From the IMG/VR virus record IMGVR_UViG_3300030333_001894, positions 1-26,911 of that record: a stretch of 26,911 bases of DNA; one strand, given 5' to 3'. Positions 3,183 to 10,783 of this stretch are shown here, one piece after another. Each line of letters starts with the position of its first letter. Position 1 is the stretch's first letter. Source of the DNA: a virus. The translations under genes and the position numbers were made by a program. Below the pieces are notes generated by a model, which saw only the letters and a list, made by a program, of their open reading frames with translations, was not told the origin of the DNA and did no database searches.

Positions 3183-3599
3183 CGATATCAAGGGAAATAT
3201 CGACCTAACTTTCCTAGAAAGTACAAAGGTGACCCAAGTAATGTCATCTATAGGTCATCTTGGGAATATAAATTTATGAAATGGTGTGATATTACTCCTT
3301 CCATACAGGAATGGGGTAGTGAAGAGATCATAATCCCTTACATTTCTCCTGTTGATGGTAAAAGACACAGATACTTCCCAGATTTTTACGTTAAAATCCA
3401 GAACAGGAAGTATTTAGTCGAGGTCAAACCCCTAAAACAAACAAGGGAACCTAAAACTCAAAAGAGAATTACAAAAAGATATATTAATGAGGTTGTTACA
3501 TGGAGTGTCAACCAAGCAAAGTGGAAAGCAGCAACCGAGTTCTGCAAAGATAACAACTGGGAATTTAAGTTAATTACTGAGAAGGAGTTAAAAGTCTAA
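3180..3599 (+). CDS. 4: Head completion protein gp4
   Basis: 139 residues, matching T4 gp4 (also called gp50), needed to finish DNA-filled heads before tail joining. The N-terminus (YRPNFPRKYKGDPSNVIYRS) and QEWGSEEIIIPYISP block resemble the family's 'Y.P.NP.KY.G....I.YRS' and 'WGSEE..IPY'. A PD-(D/E)XK nuclease-like core is visible: D68 in YFPDF and E81-x-K83 in LVEVKP, suggesting trimming or processing of DNA ends at the portal, though activity is inferred. The stop overlaps the gp54 start as TAATG (3597-3601). Confidence 0.9.
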   Translation: MRYQGKYRPNFPRKYKGDPSNVIYRSSWEYKFMKWCDITPSIQEWGSEEIIIPYISPVDGKRHRYFPDFYVKIQNRKYLVEVKPLKQTREPKTQKRITKRYINEVVTWSVNQAKWKAATEFCKDNNWEFKLITEKELKV

Positions 3600-4456
3600 T
3601 GGTATTTGGAAGCATTTTCACAGCGTTAAGTCAGGTAGCTGGCACTATCGTAGACGAAAGCAAATCAGGTATGCAATTTGAAGAGGCTGCGTACCCTTCC
3701 TATCAGGAATTTCTTGCGTTTAGTAAAAAATATGATCAGCAACCTAGTTTTAGTAACTTATTTTCGGTTCATTTTTCACCGCCAAGAATATTACAAAACA
3801 ACTTAACGATAAAGGGAGGAAGTAAAACTAGGAGGTTGAATCCTGGTGACCCCAAGATGAGAGATTTACTCAATCTTTATTGTCAATCAGTTAACATGCC
3901 TAGTAAACAGGTAACTACTGGTTCTGCTGTTAATGTTGGTGCTGCTGTTAAATATGCAACTGCTGCAGCATACAGTCAGTTAAATATGTCATTTATCATG
4001 CCTAAGTCTCAACAAACTCGTATATTTTTTGAGAGGTGGGTATCTAGAATGGTGCCAGATGCAAATCAAATGACGGAATTTTATGATAACTATGTGTGTC
4101 CTGCCTTAAGAATCTATAAATGGGAACGAGGTGGTGGTGATTTCATTAGTAACGATGCTAAGTTACAGGGTTTTGTTAACAAACAAACAGGAGATCCAAT
4201 CTATAACTTTAGAAAACATAAACTTACAGCGATGTATGAGATTCGTAATCTTTTTCCTTATAATATAGGGTCAACTCAACTAAACAATGACACTTCACGA
4301 GCTATGACTCTAACTGTAGGGTTTTTATATGAAAGGTATCGTGTTGCTGTTGAGGATGACTTTACTGATGATGGTAGGTTTAAATTTAGAAGAAACACTT
4401 CAGAGTCTCAAAACTTCCTACCAAACTTGGTTAACACTGGTGTAGGAGACTTCTAA
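3599..4456 (+). CDS. 54: Baseplate tail-tube initiator gp54
   Basis: 285 residues (T4 gp54 is about 320). gp54 sits on gp48 and starts polymerisation of the tail tube. Assignment rests on size, its place directly after gp4 and across from gp48, and a tube-protein-like pattern: FSVHFSPPRIL near the N-terminus, LNLYCQSVNMPSKQV (about 97-111), and INMSFIMP-like SQLNMSFIMPKSQQTRIFFE (about 130-149), followed by KLTAMYEIRNLFPYNIGS and a late VGFLYERYRV strand. This 'VNMP...F....R..FE.W...' organisation is shared with T4-type tube and tube-initiator proteins. Translation is coupled to gp4 through the TAATG overlap. Confidence 0.85.
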   Translation: MVFGSIFTALSQVAGTIVDESKSGMQFEEAAYPSYQEFLAFSKKYDQQPSFSNLFSVHFSPPRILQNNLTIKGGSKTRRLNPGDPKMRDLLNLYCQSVNMPSKQVTTGSAVNVGAAVKYATAAAYSQLNMSFIMPKSQQTRIFFERWVSRMVPDANQMTEFYDNYVCPALRIYKWERGGGDFISNDAKLQGFVNKQTGDPIYNFRKHKLTAMYEIRNLFPYNIGSTQLNNDTSRAMTLTVGFLYERYRVAVEDDFTDDGRFKFRRNTSESQNFLPNLVNTGVGDF

Positions 4457-4565: not shown

Positions 4566-5279
4566 ATGGCATTACCAAAACTGAATGTACCTAAGTACAA
4601 AATCAAGTTACCTTCCGATGGAAGAACCGTAAATTATAGACCTTTTCTAGTAAAAGAGGAGAAACTTCTATTACTGGCAACTGAGTCTGGTGACCAATCA
4701 GAGTTAATTACAGCAGTTACAGACATTATTAAGTCTTGTACTGATATTCAAGATGTTGATCAACTACCAACATTCGATATTGAATATATTTTCTTACAGA
4801 TCAGAACTAAGTCTGTTGGTGAAACTATTAAATTATCAGTGACTTGCCCTGATGATGGAGAAACTCCTGTTGAGGTTGAAATTCCTTTAGATCAGATTAA
4901 AGTTACTAAGACTAGAGGTCATAAAAAGGATCTAAAAATTTCTGATGAAGTTACCATTACTATGGGATATCCAAAACTGGATACATTTATTAATATGAAC
5001 TTTATCGGTGATGAAGCACCAGGTATGGATCAAATTTTTGACATGGCAGCAAATTGTCTAGAAACAATTTCTGATACTGAACAAGTATATGATTGTGCAG
5101 ACACACCTAAAAAGGAAATTCTTGAATTTTTTGATTCAATGGACACCAAACAGTTCACTATGATTCAAAAGTTCTTTGAAACCATGCCAAAACTTTCTCA
5201 TAAGATACAGGTAACTAATCCCAACACAAATGTTGAAAGTGAAGTGGTTCTGGAAGGGTTAGCGTCTTTTTTCGCGTAG
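4566..5279 (+). CDS. 26: Baseplate hub assembly protein gp26
   Basis: 237 residues, similar to T4 gp26 (about 208), which helps assemble the central hub. The N-terminus (MALPKLNVPKYKIKLPSDGR then NYRPFLVKEEKLLLLA) is the typical opening of this family ('P....Y...LPS.g....YRPFLVKEEK.LL.A'). A beta-rich middle carries VTCPDDGETPVEVEIPLDQI. The C-terminal acidic helical part ends in LASFFA followed by TAG. Its place just before two tape-measure-like genes matches the position of tail assembly chaperones in other tailed phages. The last codons lie on a TTTTTTC slippery heptamer that opens a -1 extension (next entries). Confidence 0.85.
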   Translation: MALPKLNVPKYKIKLPSDGRTVNYRPFLVKEEKLLLLATESGDQSELITAVTDIIKSCTDIQDVDQLPTFDIEYIFLQIRTKSVGETIKLSVTCPDDGETPVEVEIPLDQIKVTKTRGHKKDLKISDEVTITMGYPKLDTFINMNFIGDEAPGMDQIFDMAANCLETISDTEQVYDCADTPKKEILEFFDSMDTKQFTMIQKFFETMPKLSHKIQVTNPNTNVESEVVLEGLASFFA

Positions 5280-5464
5280 CACTCCTTCATCAAGACCTAA
5301 AAGGTTATTATGAAAGCAATTTTGCTTTAATTCATCATCATAAATGGGATATGCAATATATTGACGATCTCATGCCTTGGGAAAAGGAAGTATATGTCAA
5401 TTTATTGGTTAATTTCCTAAAAGAGGAAGAAAAACGAATGAAGGAGCAACAATCACAACAGTAA
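5243..5464 (+). CDS. 51: gp51-like reading frame, expressed as gp26-51 -1 frameshift extension
   Basis: After the preceding in-frame TGA (5240-5242) this frame is open to TAA 5462-5464. It encodes RVALLHQDLKGYYESNFALI, then HHHKWDMQYIDDLMPWEKEV and a charged helical end. The 'Y..NFALIHHHK......L..M.PWEKE.Y' pattern is that of the small gp51-type protein found after gp26 in cyanomyoviruses (hub assembly; moderate confidence in the name). There is no ATG, GTG or TTG before 5351, which is already inside the conserved block, so independent initiation would lose it. Frameshifting at 5267-5273 gives a 299-residue fusion: 236 residues of gp26 plus 63 more. The stop immediately precedes the next gene's ATG. 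Confidence 0.75.
   Translation, partial: SGSGRVSVFFRVALLHQDLKGYYESNFALIHHHKWDMQYIDDLMPWEKEVYVNLLVNFLKEEEKRMKEQQSQQ
5267..5273 (+). promoter_or_regulatory. Probable -1 ribosomal frameshift site (T TTT TTC)
   Basis: In the gp26 frame the codons are TCT-TTT-TTC-GCG-TAG. The heptamer T TTT TTC fits X XXY YYZ exactly, so both tRNAs can re-pair on TTT TTT after slipping back one base. The new frame continues CGC GTA GCA CTC and stays open to 5464. The zero-frame stop is only one codon beyond the heptamer. No convincing hairpin is seen 5-9 nt downstream; a 7-bp inverted repeat at 5313-5328 is farther than usual. Confidence 0.7.
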
Positions 5465-7942
5465 ATGGCTAAGTTACAAGTCTATAAGTTTGTTAGTCCT
5501 GGTGCAGGTAAGTCATCTGCTCCAGAAGTTGCTGCAGCTAGACAAGGTTTACTTGCCACAAATAGACTAGGATCAACCATAACTGGTTTAGGTAATCAAG
5601 TTGTAGATATCAATAAAATTACCAATTTAAGAGTAAAAGAAGCAGATAAAGCTGAAATAGCAGATAGAAGACAGAGAAGGAAACAAATGGATGCGGAGGC
5701 AGAAGCTCTCCAAGAACAATTTAGTACAAGATATCTGTCTCAGTATTTTAAGGATCAAAAGAAGAAAAAATTAAAGAAAAACAATATTGCTAAAGGTGCT
5801 GTAAACAGTGCTCTTAGTAAAACACTTGGATGGATAGGACCTTTATTACAACCATTCATTGATCTTTTTGTAAAGATATATGCCACTGTCGCACTGAAAG
5901 AGTTGCTTGATTGGGCATCTGACGAAGAAAATATTAAAAAAATGACAGTTTTCTTTGAGAAAACTAAATTTGTATTCGATAAAATATATGGTTTTGGTAA
6001 ATGGATTATTGGTGATAATTTAATCGCAGGATTCAATCAGTTATTTGGAAAAGATGAAAGTTTAATTGGTAGAATCAAAGGTTTAGGTAAGTTAATGACT
6101 GGTGTTATTGGGTTGAGATACCTAATGGCTCCATGGAAGATTATTACTGATATTCTCAATATGTTGAATATCATTACTGGTGGTAAAATCAGACCTAAAC
6201 CCTCACCAAAACCAAGACCAGGTCAAAATTTTAGACCTAAAGTCACTACCTCTACTGGAAAATCTGCAGGTCCTCTTAGTGGTATTAGAGAAACTCTTAG
6301 AAACCTTAATCCCTTTAAATCAAAACCTAAGGTTACAGTTTCTAAACCTCCTAGTAACACAGGTAATGTTCTTACCAGAGCGTTAGATAGTATAAAGAAG
6401 ACATTTACAAAACCTAAAGTTACAGGCAATGTAATAAAACCTAAATTTCAACTTCCTAAATTTCAACTTCCTAAAATTTCTGCAGGTTCTGTAGTAAAAA
6501 GTGGTGCAACTTTAGGTGTTGGTATTGCTCTTGATTGGTTAGTTGGTCTAGGATTTAGTCTTTTAGAACAAAAACAAATTGCTGATAAAGTTAAGTCATT
6601 TCAAAGACTGTCTAAAGAGCAACAGGCAGCTGAAATTGCTAGGTACGAACAATTAGTAGAAAATCAAAGAAAGAAAACACAAGGATTTAGTGGTGTATTT
6701 GAAAATATTATTACTTTTGGTGGATTAACTGGAGAGGGAACTAATAAGAAGATCCTTAGAATGACAGAGGCAACTCTGACTGCATTAAAACAGGCACAAG
6801 GACAAGTCATTACTAATGATGCGATTGAAAATTTCAATAGAATTGAATCAAAACCGATTGTCGAGGAGAAAAAAGAAGAACCCAAAAAGAAAAAAGGTTT
6901 ATTTGGTTTAGGTTTCTTTGGTTTAGAGCACGGTGGTGAGTTACCAGAGTTCTTCTTTGGTGGTTTGGTTAGAAGTATTGGTAGAGCAGTTAGTGGTGTC
7001 GTAAAGGGTGTAACTAGCGTAGTTAGTAGTGTTGTTAATACAGTTACTAGCGTAGTTAGTAATCCTATTGTCAATACAGCACTATCATTTATTCCTGGCA
7101 TCGGTCCTGTAGTTCAAGCTATAAACGCTGTAACAAATCTTGCTAAAGGAAACATCGTGGGTGCTATTACCAGTGGTGTTGGTGCTTTAGGTAGTTTTGC
7201 TAATATCAATACAGTAAATGCTATAAATCAACCTCAATGGATGAGAAATCTTAGATTTAGTAAGTTTGGACAAGGTGTTGCAAACATGTATCACAAGGGA
7301 GCAAATCTTTTCGCCAGAGCAAGTGGATTTGTAAGCAATCTTTATAATAATGTTACTAGCAGTAGACTTGGTAAAATAGGTATGCAACTTCTAGGTGGTA
7401 ATATGGGTGGTGCTATTGGTGAAGTTGTTGGTATGATGCCAGGTTTATCAGGTGGTATTGAGAATTTTGGTAACTGGTTAGAAAAAAATCAATTACAAGG
7501 TATCTTAGGAGCAGTACCTGGTATTCGAGGTCTTGTAAGTAATGTTCCTAATATTATGAGTATACCTGGCATGGCAAAGATTCTTGGTGGAGACGGATAT
7601 CAGTTCTCTGCTATGAATGCCATAGGTGCTGTAGCAGATAAAGCAGGTATGAAGGGTATATACAATGCTATACTAAGTGGTGCTCAATCAGGTAATTATA
7701 TTGATAGTTTGAGAGAGTTAGCACCTGAGTTAGGAGTTGATCCTAGAATTTTAGGTGTATTAGATAAAGGTAGAGCATTACTTCGTGATAATAAGTTCAA
7801 TGCTGAGTATGCTATGCAGACTGCTATTGAATTCTTACCTGTTCCTTTAATTGTTGAGAAGTTGATTCCTGCACCTACCCCTGTACCTATAAATAGCGGT
7901 GATACTTATCTTGTCGCTCCATCTTCAACACAATCGAGGTGA
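5465..7942 (+). CDS. Large tape-measure/hub-like virion protein, first paralogue (825 aa)
   Basis: Begins with the short motif YKFVSPGAG, followed by a segment with TNRLGSTITGLGNQVVDI (about 31-49) and a basic coiled region. A hydrophobic helical block follows (about 118-220: ATVALKELLDWASDEEN ... GLGKLMTGVIGL). Then come a Lys/Pro-rich linker (about 240-345), EHGGELPEFFFGG (488-500) and a long Gly/Ala/Val/Asn-rich helical region. These are features of tail tape-measure proteins, which set tail length and sit in the tube above the hub. Position after gp26/51 and before gp27 supports a gp29-like role, but I do not see a clear T4 gp29 signature. It shares its N-terminal third with the next gene. 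A 15-bp direct repeat lies in the linker. Confidence 0.65.
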   Translation: MAKLQVYKFVSPGAGKSSAPEVAAARQGLLATNRLGSTITGLGNQVVDINKITNLRVKEADKAEIADRRQRRKQMDAEAEALQEQFSTRYLSQYFKDQKKKKLKKNNIAKGAVNSALSKTLGWIGPLLQPFIDLFVKIYATVALKELLDWASDEENIKKMTVFFEKTKFVFDKIYGFGKWIIGDNLIAGFNQLFGKDESLIGRIKGLGKLMTGVIGLRYLMAPWKIITDILNMLNIITGGKIRPKPSPKPRPGQNFRPKVTTSTGKSAGPLSGIRETLRNLNPFKSKPKVTVSKPPSNTGNVLTRALDSIKKTFTKPKVTGNVIKPKFQLPKFQLPKISAGSVVKSGATLGVGIALDWLVGLGFSLLEQKQIADKVKSFQRLSKEQQAAEIARYEQLVENQRKKTQGFSGVFENIITFGGLTGEGTNKKILRMTEATLTALKQAQGQVITNDAIENFNRIESKPIVEEKKEEPKKKKGLFGLGFFGLEHGGELPEFFFGGLVRSIGRAVSGVVKGVTSVVSSVVNTVTSVVSNPIVNTALSFIPGIGPVVQAINAVTNLAKGNIVGAITSGVGALGSFANINTVNAINQPQWMRNLRFSKFGQGVANMYHKGANLFARASGFVSNLYNNVTSSRLGKIGMQLLGGNMGGAIGEVVGMMPGLSGGIENFGNWLEKNQLQGILGAVPGIRGLVSNVPNIMSIPGMAKILGGDGYQFSAMNAIGAVADKAGMKGIYNAILSGAQSGNYIDSLRELAPELGVDPRILGVLDKGRALLRDNKFNAEYAMQTAIEFLPVPLIVEKLIPAPTPVPINSGDTYLVAPSSTQSR
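6440..6469 (+). repeat. 15-bp tandem direct repeat in the Lys/Pro linker
   Basis: CCTAAATTTCAACTT occurs twice back to back (6440-6454, 6455-6469) with a partial third copy, encoding PKFQL-PKFQL-PKI. In-frame linker length variation is the likely effect. Confidence 0.85.
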
Positions 7943-7945
7943 TAA

Positions 7946-10783
7946 ATGGCATTAAATAAAACAGGTGCCAAAATTAATTTTTACAAGTTTGTAGATCCCG
8001 ATGGTGGTCGCACACAGGGTGGAGCTCAGACTCGTTCTTCGAGGAAAAATATAAACTTAACTAAGACTATCAAGTTGCAAACAACTGCAACTAATAACTT
8101 AGGAGCAACAATAAATTCCTTAGGCACAGTTGTAAAAGATATTAGAAGGTCTCAATTATCATTATTAGAGGCAGATAGAGAAAGAGCAAAACGAAGATTC
8201 AAACCAGTTTTCCCAAAACCCAGAAAGCTAAAGAAATTTGGAGGTTTTGATAGTTTATTTAAAGGTAAAATACCTAGTTTCTGGGAGTCACTCTTAGGAT
8301 TAATTGGTTCTTTCTTAAAGTTCTTTTTAGTTTTACCTGCTCTTAAATGGTTGTCAAATCCAGAAAATCAAGATAAAGTGGTAACGATCTTAGAAACTCT
8401 TCATAAGGTCTTTAAATTTATATCTGGATGGGCAAAATTCTCTATCAATAATACTATTGATGGATTATATGATCTATTGAAAGACGAAGCTACGCTTAGA
8501 GAGAGGTTAGGAGGTCTCTTGAAAGCAATGACGGGATTAGGTGCAGCTTGGTTAGGGATTGGTATACTTACAAATCCCATCGGTACAGTTCTAGCTTTCA
8601 AATCAGTTTTAACATCGTTTGCTACTGGTCTTGCAAATGCAGCATTAGCACTAGCAAGACATCCATTAGTTGTCGCTACTGGACTGTTTACTGCAGGATA
8701 TTTAATTCCTAGAGCATTTCCTCAAACTGTTAATGAACAGGAAAGGAAGATAAATGAGCAAGAGGGATCAAATGCTGATAAAATCAAAGCACTTGAAGAA
8801 CAATATGCAGGATTAAATTGGTTTGACAAATACGTCCGTGGAATGGGTTCTGAAATTCAAGAACAAATTGAACAGTTAAAAACAGGGAAAGTTAAGTCAT
8901 ATGGTATGACTTTCGGTCAAGATGACTTATTCCCAGAACCAGAAAAAATGATTGGAGGATTTTTAAATGGGTATGCTAAAGGTGGTTGGATTTCTGGTCC
9001 TCAGTCAGGGTATCCTGTATCACTAGATGGTAATAAACCTGACTTTATTGGACATGGAACTGAGTATGTTGCAACAAAATCTGATGGAAGTGCATTTGTA
9101 GTTCCATTTGATACACCTGCAACTAGAGCGATGCCTGGTTTATTATCTTCAAGACTAGCAGAAGCATCAGCAATGGGTTTCATGTCTGGTGGTGGTGAAC
9201 TAGATCATTTTGCCAAAAGAATGATTAAAGAAAATGAAGGTCTACGATTAAAAAAATATAATGACAGTCTTGGTAATCCTACTATTGGTTATGGACATTT
9301 GGTAAAACCAGATTCTAAAATACCTGATACGATTAGTAAAGCATATGCTGATCAGTTATTTGAAAAGGATTACAGATACCATAAGCAAGCTGCTCAAAGT
9401 ATACCTGGTTATGACAAGATGTCATTGCAACAAAAAGCAGCAATGATTGATCTTACATTTAATATGGGTCCTCAGTGGTATCAGGACTTCCCATTAATGA
9501 TGGCAGCCATTCAAAGAGGTGATTATAAAACTGCTGGTGCAGAATTAAAGAATAGTCTTTATTACACTCAAGTGGGTCGTCGTGGTCCTGTTACAGTTGC
9601 TTTGATTCAAAACAAAGGTCTTGTTGGTGTAGGGGAGTATCTACTTAATAAAGGAATTACTATACCTAAGGGTTCAGAAGCTAAAAAAGCTGGATTATTT
9701 GGTGGTATATTCAATGTTTTACTAGGTGCTTCACCTGCGGGTGCTTCTGGACTGTCAGATGTTGAAGGTTTTGTTGAAGAAGGACAAAGAGATAAGAAAG
9801 GAGTTTTAGCTTCAAATCTCGGATCTCTTTTAATTCAACCTGCAGGTCATTCAGAAACAGGAACAGGATGGGGTATTAAAGGAGCTATGGATAAACATGG
9901 TCGTCCTATAGTTTTATCACAACCTGCAGCGTCTGCATTTATGCAGATGATGATGGACTCTAAGGGTCAAGTTAATCCTTCGGATGTGGCAAGTAGTGGT
10001 AGAAGTATCAAACAGAATGAAAAAGTTGGTGGTCATGAAAACTCCGTACACTTATATGGTGAAGGACTTGATCTATCTGGTGCTTCTCATAAATGGATGA
10101 GAGCAAATGGTTCTCGTTACGGATGGAAATATAAGTATTCTCACGGTCCTGGTAGTGGTCATTATGATTACGTTGGGACAGGTGCTGGTAAAACACCGAT
10201 TCTTTCTCCCTTTGGTGGTAAAGCATTCCCATTCTCAACGACTACAAGGACAGATTCTAGTGGTCGTCCTCAAGTTGGTATTACTGGTGGTGCTGCTGAT
10301 TTTGCTTCTATTCTTAAAAGTATGAATATAAATGAAATGCTACAAGAGTCATTTGGTAGAGGTGGCGGACCAGCTTCATTTATGGGTGGTGAACAAATGG
10401 ATGTCTTAGGAGGTATGTTTGGTGGTGGAGCACTACCTGCAAACAATTCATCGTTCATGAGTGGTAAAACAAAAAGAAATGCATCTACTTATGAAGAACA
10501 AGCACGAGTTCGTAGAGTCACAGAGCAGCGTAATGCAGCAAGAAGAGAGATCAACAATAGAACTACTGAGATAGTGCAAATGGCACTAGCTGCTATAGAA
10601 TCTTCTAATGGATCTAATCGTCAATTTATTTCGAGAGCAGAAGCAGGTATTCGTCAACTTTTAGGTGCTCAAGCAGGTGGTGGAACATTTGCAAATGTAG
10701 GTGGAACAACAGGAACAGTTCTTAGAACCGCAGTTGCAGTGCTTAATTCCTTTAATAACCCTCTTAGAGGTATCTTCCAATGA
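7946..10783 (+). CDS. Tape-measure/hub-like protein with GH24 lysozyme and M15-like peptidase (945 aa)
   Basis: Residues 12-70 and about 100-220 repeat the architecture of the upstream gene (FYKFVDPDGG, NNLGATINSLGTVVKDI, ALKWLSNPENQ, LGGLLKAMTGLGA). Residues 343-376 (YAKGGWISGPQSG to HGTEYVA) form a Gly-rich motif common in tape-measure proteins. Residues ~418-560 are a T4-type lysozyme: E431, D440 and T446 (NEGLRLKKYNDSLGNPTIGY) keep the spacing of T4 lysozyme E11/D20/T26. Residues ~625-755 resemble M15 D-Ala-D-Ala-type peptidases: SVHLYGEGLD (H702, D709) and SGHYDYVG (H739) could hold zinc. The protein probably cuts host peptidoglycan during DNA entry. GAGGTGA before the ATG is a strong ribosome site; the end overlaps gp27 as ATGA. 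Confidence 0.75.
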   Translation: MALNKTGAKINFYKFVDPDGGRTQGGAQTRSSRKNINLTKTIKLQTTATNNLGATINSLGTVVKDIRRSQLSLLEADRERAKRRFKPVFPKPRKLKKFGGFDSLFKGKIPSFWESLLGLIGSFLKFFLVLPALKWLSNPENQDKVVTILETLHKVFKFISGWAKFSINNTIDGLYDLLKDEATLRERLGGLLKAMTGLGAAWLGIGILTNPIGTVLAFKSVLTSFATGLANAALALARHPLVVATGLFTAGYLIPRAFPQTVNEQERKINEQEGSNADKIKALEEQYAGLNWFDKYVRGMGSEIQEQIEQLKTGKVKSYGMTFGQDDLFPEPEKMIGGFLNGYAKGGWISGPQSGYPVSLDGNKPDFIGHGTEYVATKSDGSAFVVPFDTPATRAMPGLLSSRLAEASAMGFMSGGGELDHFAKRMIKENEGLRLKKYNDSLGNPTIGYGHLVKPDSKIPDTISKAYADQLFEKDYRYHKQAAQSIPGYDKMSLQQKAAMIDLTFNMGPQWYQDFPLMMAAIQRGDYKTAGAELKNSLYYTQVGRRGPVTVALIQNKGLVGVGEYLLNKGITIPKGSEAKKAGLFGGIFNVLLGASPAGASGLSDVEGFVEEGQRDKKGVLASNLGSLLIQPAGHSETGTGWGIKGAMDKHGRPIVLSQPAASAFMQMMMDSKGQVNPSDVASSGRSIKQNEKVGGHENSVHLYGEGLDLSGASHKWMRANGSRYGWKYKYSHGPGSGHYDYVGTGAGKTPILSPFGGKAFPFSTTTRTDSSGRPQVGITGGAADFASILKSMNINEMLQESFGRGGGPASFMGGEQMDVLGGMFGGGALPANNSSFMSGKTKRNASTYEEQARVRRVTEQRNAARREINNRTTEIVQMALAAIESSNGSNRQFISRAEAGIRQLLGAQAGGGTFANVGGTTGTVLRTAVAVLNSFNNPLRGIFQ

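Follow-up and report, generated by a model that had tools for sequence, protein, structure and literature searches.

The window, i.e. the whole stretch of DNA analysed here, is a virus record of 26,911 bases, and all coordinates given below are window positions. Its closest named relatives are myoviruses of marine Synechococcus and Prochlorococcus, e.g. S-TIM4, P-RSM4 and S-SM1. All features described lie on the plus strand.

The open reading frame of gp26 (4566..5279) encodes 237 aa, which match PF12322 (T4_baseplate) over the full domain (1.2e-77, residues 9-237, profile positions 2-219 of 219) and the PHROG family phrog_150, baseplate hub (3.6e-89). This protein is regarded as the candidate short form (TAC-N). 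The 3' end of its frame reads GCG TCT TTT TTC GCG TAG, with the stop codon TAG, whose position varies among relatives, at 5277..5279. In the phase of gp26 the bases T TTT TTC at 5267..5273 form a slippery heptamer of the type X XXY YYZ, a putative -1 shift site. The -1 open frame covers 73 codons (5243..5464). Its part from 5273 to 5464, including the stop, represents the 63 aa gp51 extension, which reads RVALLHQDLKGYYESNFALIHHHKWDMQYIDDLMPWEKEVYVNLLVNFLKEEEKRMKEQQSQQ after the heptamer and matches phrog_634, ‘baseplate hub assembly catalyst’ (2.4e-28). The original prediction had described an ideal heptamer ending the gp26 frame and a -1 frame open to 5464 that encodes a gp51-type sequence; the coordinates were reproduced, and the phrog_634 match bears out the gp51 assignment. 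A shift at this site would yield a predicted gp26-gp51 product (4566..5464) of 299 aa and 34.5 kDa with the junction LASFF-RVALLH. The computed fusion agrees with the junction peptide ASFF-RVALLH proposed before and replaces the earlier estimate of ~33 kDa for this gp26 form.

Upstream of gp26 a gp19-like tail tube protein is encoded (3599..4456; phrog_45, 3e-52), and two long genes follow downstream. The first encodes an 825 aa protein (5465..7942; phrog_790, 4e-164, named endolysin), a possible tape measure with a weak match to the tape-measure family phrog_4197 (E 0.005). The second encodes a 945 aa protein (7946..10783; phrog_1200, 9e-223; phrog_790, 2.5e-29) with an N-terminus related to the 825 aa protein, a lysozyme-like domain at about residues 425-536 and a match to NF058676 below that model's cut-off (E 3e-11). 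The N-terminal similarity is reflected in phrog_790 and phrog_1200 matching both neighbours. The PHROGs label for both is ‘endolysin’; their size and position suggest a tape-measure or hub protein. Of the claim that gp26/gp51 adjoins two tape-measure-like genes, the two long genes are confirmed, but both are at most weak candidates for tape measures. The order of tail tube, gp26/gp51 and long protein would fit that of chaperone loci, the tape measure being a candidate.

In the -1 frame of the window neither ATG, GTG nor TTG occurs before 5351, where the first of them, an ATG, is located; our re-scan agrees with the original prediction in this respect. The only near-cognate codons before this position are AGG at 5255 and ATT at 5330, the latter already within the conserved gp51 domain. 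Rare start codons occur in T4, and an internal product, 26', has been annotated for its gene 26, so that a start of gp51 at a non-AUG codon or at the internal ATG 5351 may be considered. With just these two codons to choose from, and with the conserved RVALLHQDLKGYYESNFALI, which evolves as coding sequence, being lost under either alternative, such a start appears extremely improbable.

Conservation and geometry of the junction

Relatives were collected as contigs from a viral collection, retrieved with seven queries (six gp26, one gp51), together with chosen isolate genomes and their annotation. Scripted analysis of 349 genes gave the positions of gp26 and its stop, of the -1 frame and of heptamers in phase. 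Thinning by shared words to ~90% identity led to 139 clusters, which are not fully independent and do not represent a random sample: 136 non-T4 clusters, two of the T4 type and one ending at a contig edge.

All 136 non-T4 clusters possess T TTT TT[C/T] in the phase of gp26 (118 TTTTTTC, 18 TTTTTTT), and in every one of them gp51 is reached via the -1 frame. The residue preceding the Phe-Phe pair varies (Ser, Asp, Asn, Ala, Thr, His), and its codon always ends in T. Of 171 Phe-Phe pairs elsewhere in these genes only 2 have the heptamer form (Fisher 6e-87, calculated on clusters that share ancestry). The conservation of the in-phase heptamer is far beyond chance. Homopolymer miscalls are possible, and with an assembled viral fragment such as the window a sequencing or assembly error might be suspected as the cause of the frame break. 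The same break is found throughout the 349-gene census, including isolate genomes from many laboratories; an error was rejected on this ground, its probability being practically nil. We further observe three relatives (L086, L210, L211) with T TTT TTT beginning 13 nt 5' of the stop, whose second Phe is followed by residues that deviate from the usual FF-R.

The distance from the heptamer to the [ML]PWE motif of gp51 amounts to 34 codons in 127 of the 136 clusters. Counted from the heptamer start, the gp26 stop follows after 7, 10, 13, 16 or 31 nt, a drift of 24 nt among clusters. The largest value, which places the stop within the gp51 domain, is found in 13 clusters. The relatives in which the two frames overlap inside this domain are L236, L248, L257, L259, L260, L261 and L263, and further L221, L251, L264, L285, L311 and L330. 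In 18 clusters the opening of the -1 frame coincides with the heptamer, in four more it is at most one codon away, and 10 of these 22 contain no start codon nearby. In 61 of the 136 clusters, that of the window included, no ATG, GTG or TTG is present between the point where the -1 frame opens and a position 45 nt beyond the start of the heptamer. If only ATG is counted, 78 clusters have none near the junction and 58 have one in the gp51 frame at most 45 nt from the heptamer, so that an independent start of gp51 is conceivable in these 58; in 53 clusters an ATG lies 9-24 nt after the heptamer start. An alignment of the junction across relatives had been proposed together with the original prediction, and a conserved gp51 start combined with a lost heptamer had been named as the refuting case. 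This case was looked for and its opposite was found in the non-T4 clusters, the heptamer being kept in all of them and the start being absent in the 61 mentioned.

The codons between the heptamer and the first start provide a further hint. In 45 start-less clusters the pairwise differences at -1 codon positions 1, 2 and 3 of this stretch are 21, 16 and 62%. The 53 clusters with an early ATG contain 171 -1 codons between heptamer and ATG, all free of stops, the chance of which is 3e-4 if codons are taken as random and independent. This codon signal indicates that translation in the -1 frame already covers the stretch between the heptamer and the first start. The constant distance from heptamer to gp51, the opening of the -1 frame at this very site and the existence of start-less clusters together argue for the heptamer as the crossing point.

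Databases annotate gp51 as a separate gene, and it could be made as a separate protein by termination and reinitiation at the gp26 stop or directly behind it, as might be expected from the TAATG overlaps in KVP40 and S-CRM01 and from the 53 clusters with an ATG 9-24 nt behind the start of the heptamer. In the window, however, reinitiation is impossible because no start codon lies at the junction, and 60 other clusters equally lack ATG, GTG and TTG there. Where a start exists its position is not conserved, and the heptamer is retained with or without ATG. In addition, the codons from heptamer to ATG remain open in ATG-bearing clusters, and a stop 31 nt past the heptamer start, as in the 13 clusters above, falls inside the gp51 domain. 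We consider reinitiation very unlikely as the source of gp51; it may add free gp51 in lineages with TAATG such as KVP40 and S-CRM01. Five relatives carry T TTT TTC plus TAATG or TAGTG at the stop (L087, L088, L096, L192, L295), making both frameshift and reinitiation possible, and in L088, L096, L192 and L295 the stop follows directly after the heptamer. The absence of a Shine-Dalgarno (SD) sequence before gp51 ATGs was dropped as an argument against reinitiation, since gp26 starts in these phages are also without it.

Candidate stimulatory elements

A frameshift at the heptamer could be aided by elements on both sides of it. The SD-like sequence GGAAGGGT (5253..5260) is located 6 nt 5' of the heptamer and represents a candidate upstream stimulator that is accompanied by family-wide pairing. 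Codon-matched controls show weaker anti-SD pairing than the relatives do 6-10 nt 5' of the heptamer. For Glu the element uses GAG in 74 out of 94 cases compared to 31% elsewhere (p 8e-21), and for Gly it uses GGA or GGG in 60 out of 94 compared to 34% elsewhere (p 4e-8). The window possesses a weaker version, GGAAGG. We take the position of an SD-like element 5' of the heptamer to resemble the dnaX arrangement.

Downstream, a candidate hairpin (5286..5314) is weak in this phage, with a free energy of -9.3 for the 66 nt. Family-wide, RNA folding peaks in the 51 nt directly 3' of the heptamer with a mean z of -1.39, compared to about -0.7 to +0.1 elsewhere, where one comparison segment is distorted by a numerical artefact. 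L001, a near-identical copy of the window, has a folding z of -1.2. A single conserved downstream pseudoknot or hairpin was not found, and the fold shapes differ between clades. The SD-like enrichment and the local folding can be regarded as supporting -1 frameshifting, without being decisive.

Both observations point to the ribosome and thus also bear on slippage of RNA polymerase on the T6 run, by which mRNAs with joined frames would arise. A run of six to seven T is indeed present at the junction, and its slippage would likewise connect gp26 and gp51. Six-base runs are short for bacterial polymerase slippage, and the run is always in the phase NNT TTT TT[C/T] that fits tandem tRNA slippage (136/136), although the conservation of Phe-Phe may partly explain this phase. 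We regard polymerase slippage as very improbable.

Short and long forms in T4 and their proposed counterpart in its relatives

Genes 25 and 26 of T4 share the minus strand, and gene 51 is divergent. The Phe-Phe pair is present at the end of T4 gp26 as well, coded G TTC TTT, and no heptamer is found there. T4 gp51 (249 aa) matches PF12322, the family of the window gp26, over residues 1-201 (3.9e-52), and its residues 147-246 match phrog_634 (1.2e-23). The cyanophage extension aligns with the T4 gp51 C-terminus (hhalign E 8.8e-5, probability 60%); the spacing across the junction was read off the sequence comparison. As T4 gp51 combines a PF12322 part with a C-terminus alignable to the cyanophage extension, it is, according to these alignments, the unbroken, in-frame counterpart of the predicted frameshift product, and T4 gp26 is the short form. 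T4 thus differs from the window in having two divergent genes, a fused long 51 and a heptamer-less 26, whereas the window has one putative frameshift locus. CxxC pairs (zinc-ribbon-like) are found in T4 gp51 (residues 80-97) and in KVP40 gp26, where the window gp26 has a single Cys (CPDDGE, ~residues 93-100).

Both T4 proteins appear as hub assembly chaperones in PMC3004832, according to which T4 gp51 is needed for assembly yet not found in the particle. Sullivan et al. 2010 reported that gp51 of cyanophages and marine vibriophages is without the first ~200 residues of T4 gp51 (PMC3037559). Our reading offers an explanation for this observation, as the missing residues would be supplied by gp26 via the frameshift.

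The chaperone function is what we infer from the locus and from T4. Based on the analogy to lambda gpG/gpGT and on the separate encoding of both forms in T4 (26 short, 51 fused long), gp26/gp26-51 is most likely a pair of short and long tail assembly chaperones. This role had been proposed in the original prediction, and the in-frame fusion in T4 fits the idea of two forms. For an AlphaFold2 model of gp26 (pLDDT 84) the likeliest match among solved structures is the HK97 chaperone 2ob9, which does not reach significance (probability 0.54, E 0.68, TMt 0.41). Searching solved structures with the gp26 sequence and with both profiles gave no significant match, a Pfam scan of 43 gp51 extensions found no tail assembly chaperone family, and Foldseek of the gp51 model gave no useful match.

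Taken together, gene 26 and the gp51 segment of this marine T4-like phage very likely constitute one -1 frameshift gene that makes a short and a long tail assembly chaperone. The slippage itself and its efficiency we infer from sequence. Most ribosomes would read through to the TAG at 5277 and release the 237 aa short gp26 as the main product. A minority would slip back by one base on T TTT TTC (5267-5273) with re-pairing of both tRNAs, aided by the SD-like sequence upstream and the RNA folding downstream, and would read on to 5464, yielding the 299 aa gp26-gp51 protein. The short and long chaperones might then load the tape-measure or hub complex and recruit tail tube subunits.

With regard to evolution we tentatively suggest, with somewhat less than even confidence, that the frameshift is the ancestral way of the T4-like superfamily to make two chaperone forms. 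It would have been kept nearly always in the marine, rhizobial, pseudomonad and vibrio lineages, with some lineages (KVP40, S-CRM01 type) also making free gp51 by reinitiation at a start overlapping the stop, and the enteric T4 branch would have swapped it for duplication and in-frame fusion (26, 51). One branch would accordingly realize the functional pair by recoding, another by two genes.

The two frames are joined in no isolate record examined; these records list gp51 as a short gene of its own, the start of which varies, or omit it. The present analysis corrects this systematic misannotation of gp51 in the examined records. The junction peptide can be used as a concrete target in proteomics and ribosome-profiling data on very abundant ocean viruses.

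The kind of system is already known. Frameshifting in the tail assembly chaperone genes of long-tailed phages was described by Xu, Hendrix & Duda 2004 and is reviewed in PMC5009743, and this 2016 review makes T4 an exception to the conserved frameshift. The original prediction had been made without awareness of a description of the gp26/gp51 frameshift. The idea has, however, been treated before: according to two citing papers (PMC10885494, PMC12846349), Vladimirov, Gautam & Davidson 2022 (Virology 566:9-15) identified tail assembly chaperone genes of T4-like phages. The PRFect paper (PMC10885494) cites this work for T4-like phages in which a short gene and a fused long one occur, and the paper on phage Adele (PMC12846349) for poly-T slippery sequences in T4-like TAC-N genes. 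As far as these citations convey, the genes belong to the same family as those of the window, and the presence of the system in T4-like phages is very probably known too. Our contribution consists of the nearly invariant site in 136 clusters, tests of geometry and codons, statistics on the stimulators and the connection to the observation of 2010.

The TAC locus of the Vandenendeviridae (phage Adele, PMC12846349) resembles the window in its conserved -1 shift into an extension that is usually annotated separately, but its motif is GTTTTT and the phage family is another one. Compared to lambda gpG/gpGT, no sequence similarity is detectable, gp26 is larger and belongs to PF12322, and the site is T TTT TTC. 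The likeness to lambda lies in the organization: a short and a long form are made by a -1 slip close to the end of the first frame, the second frame has no start of its own in the window, and the locus is placed between the gene for the tail tube and the long tail gene that follows.
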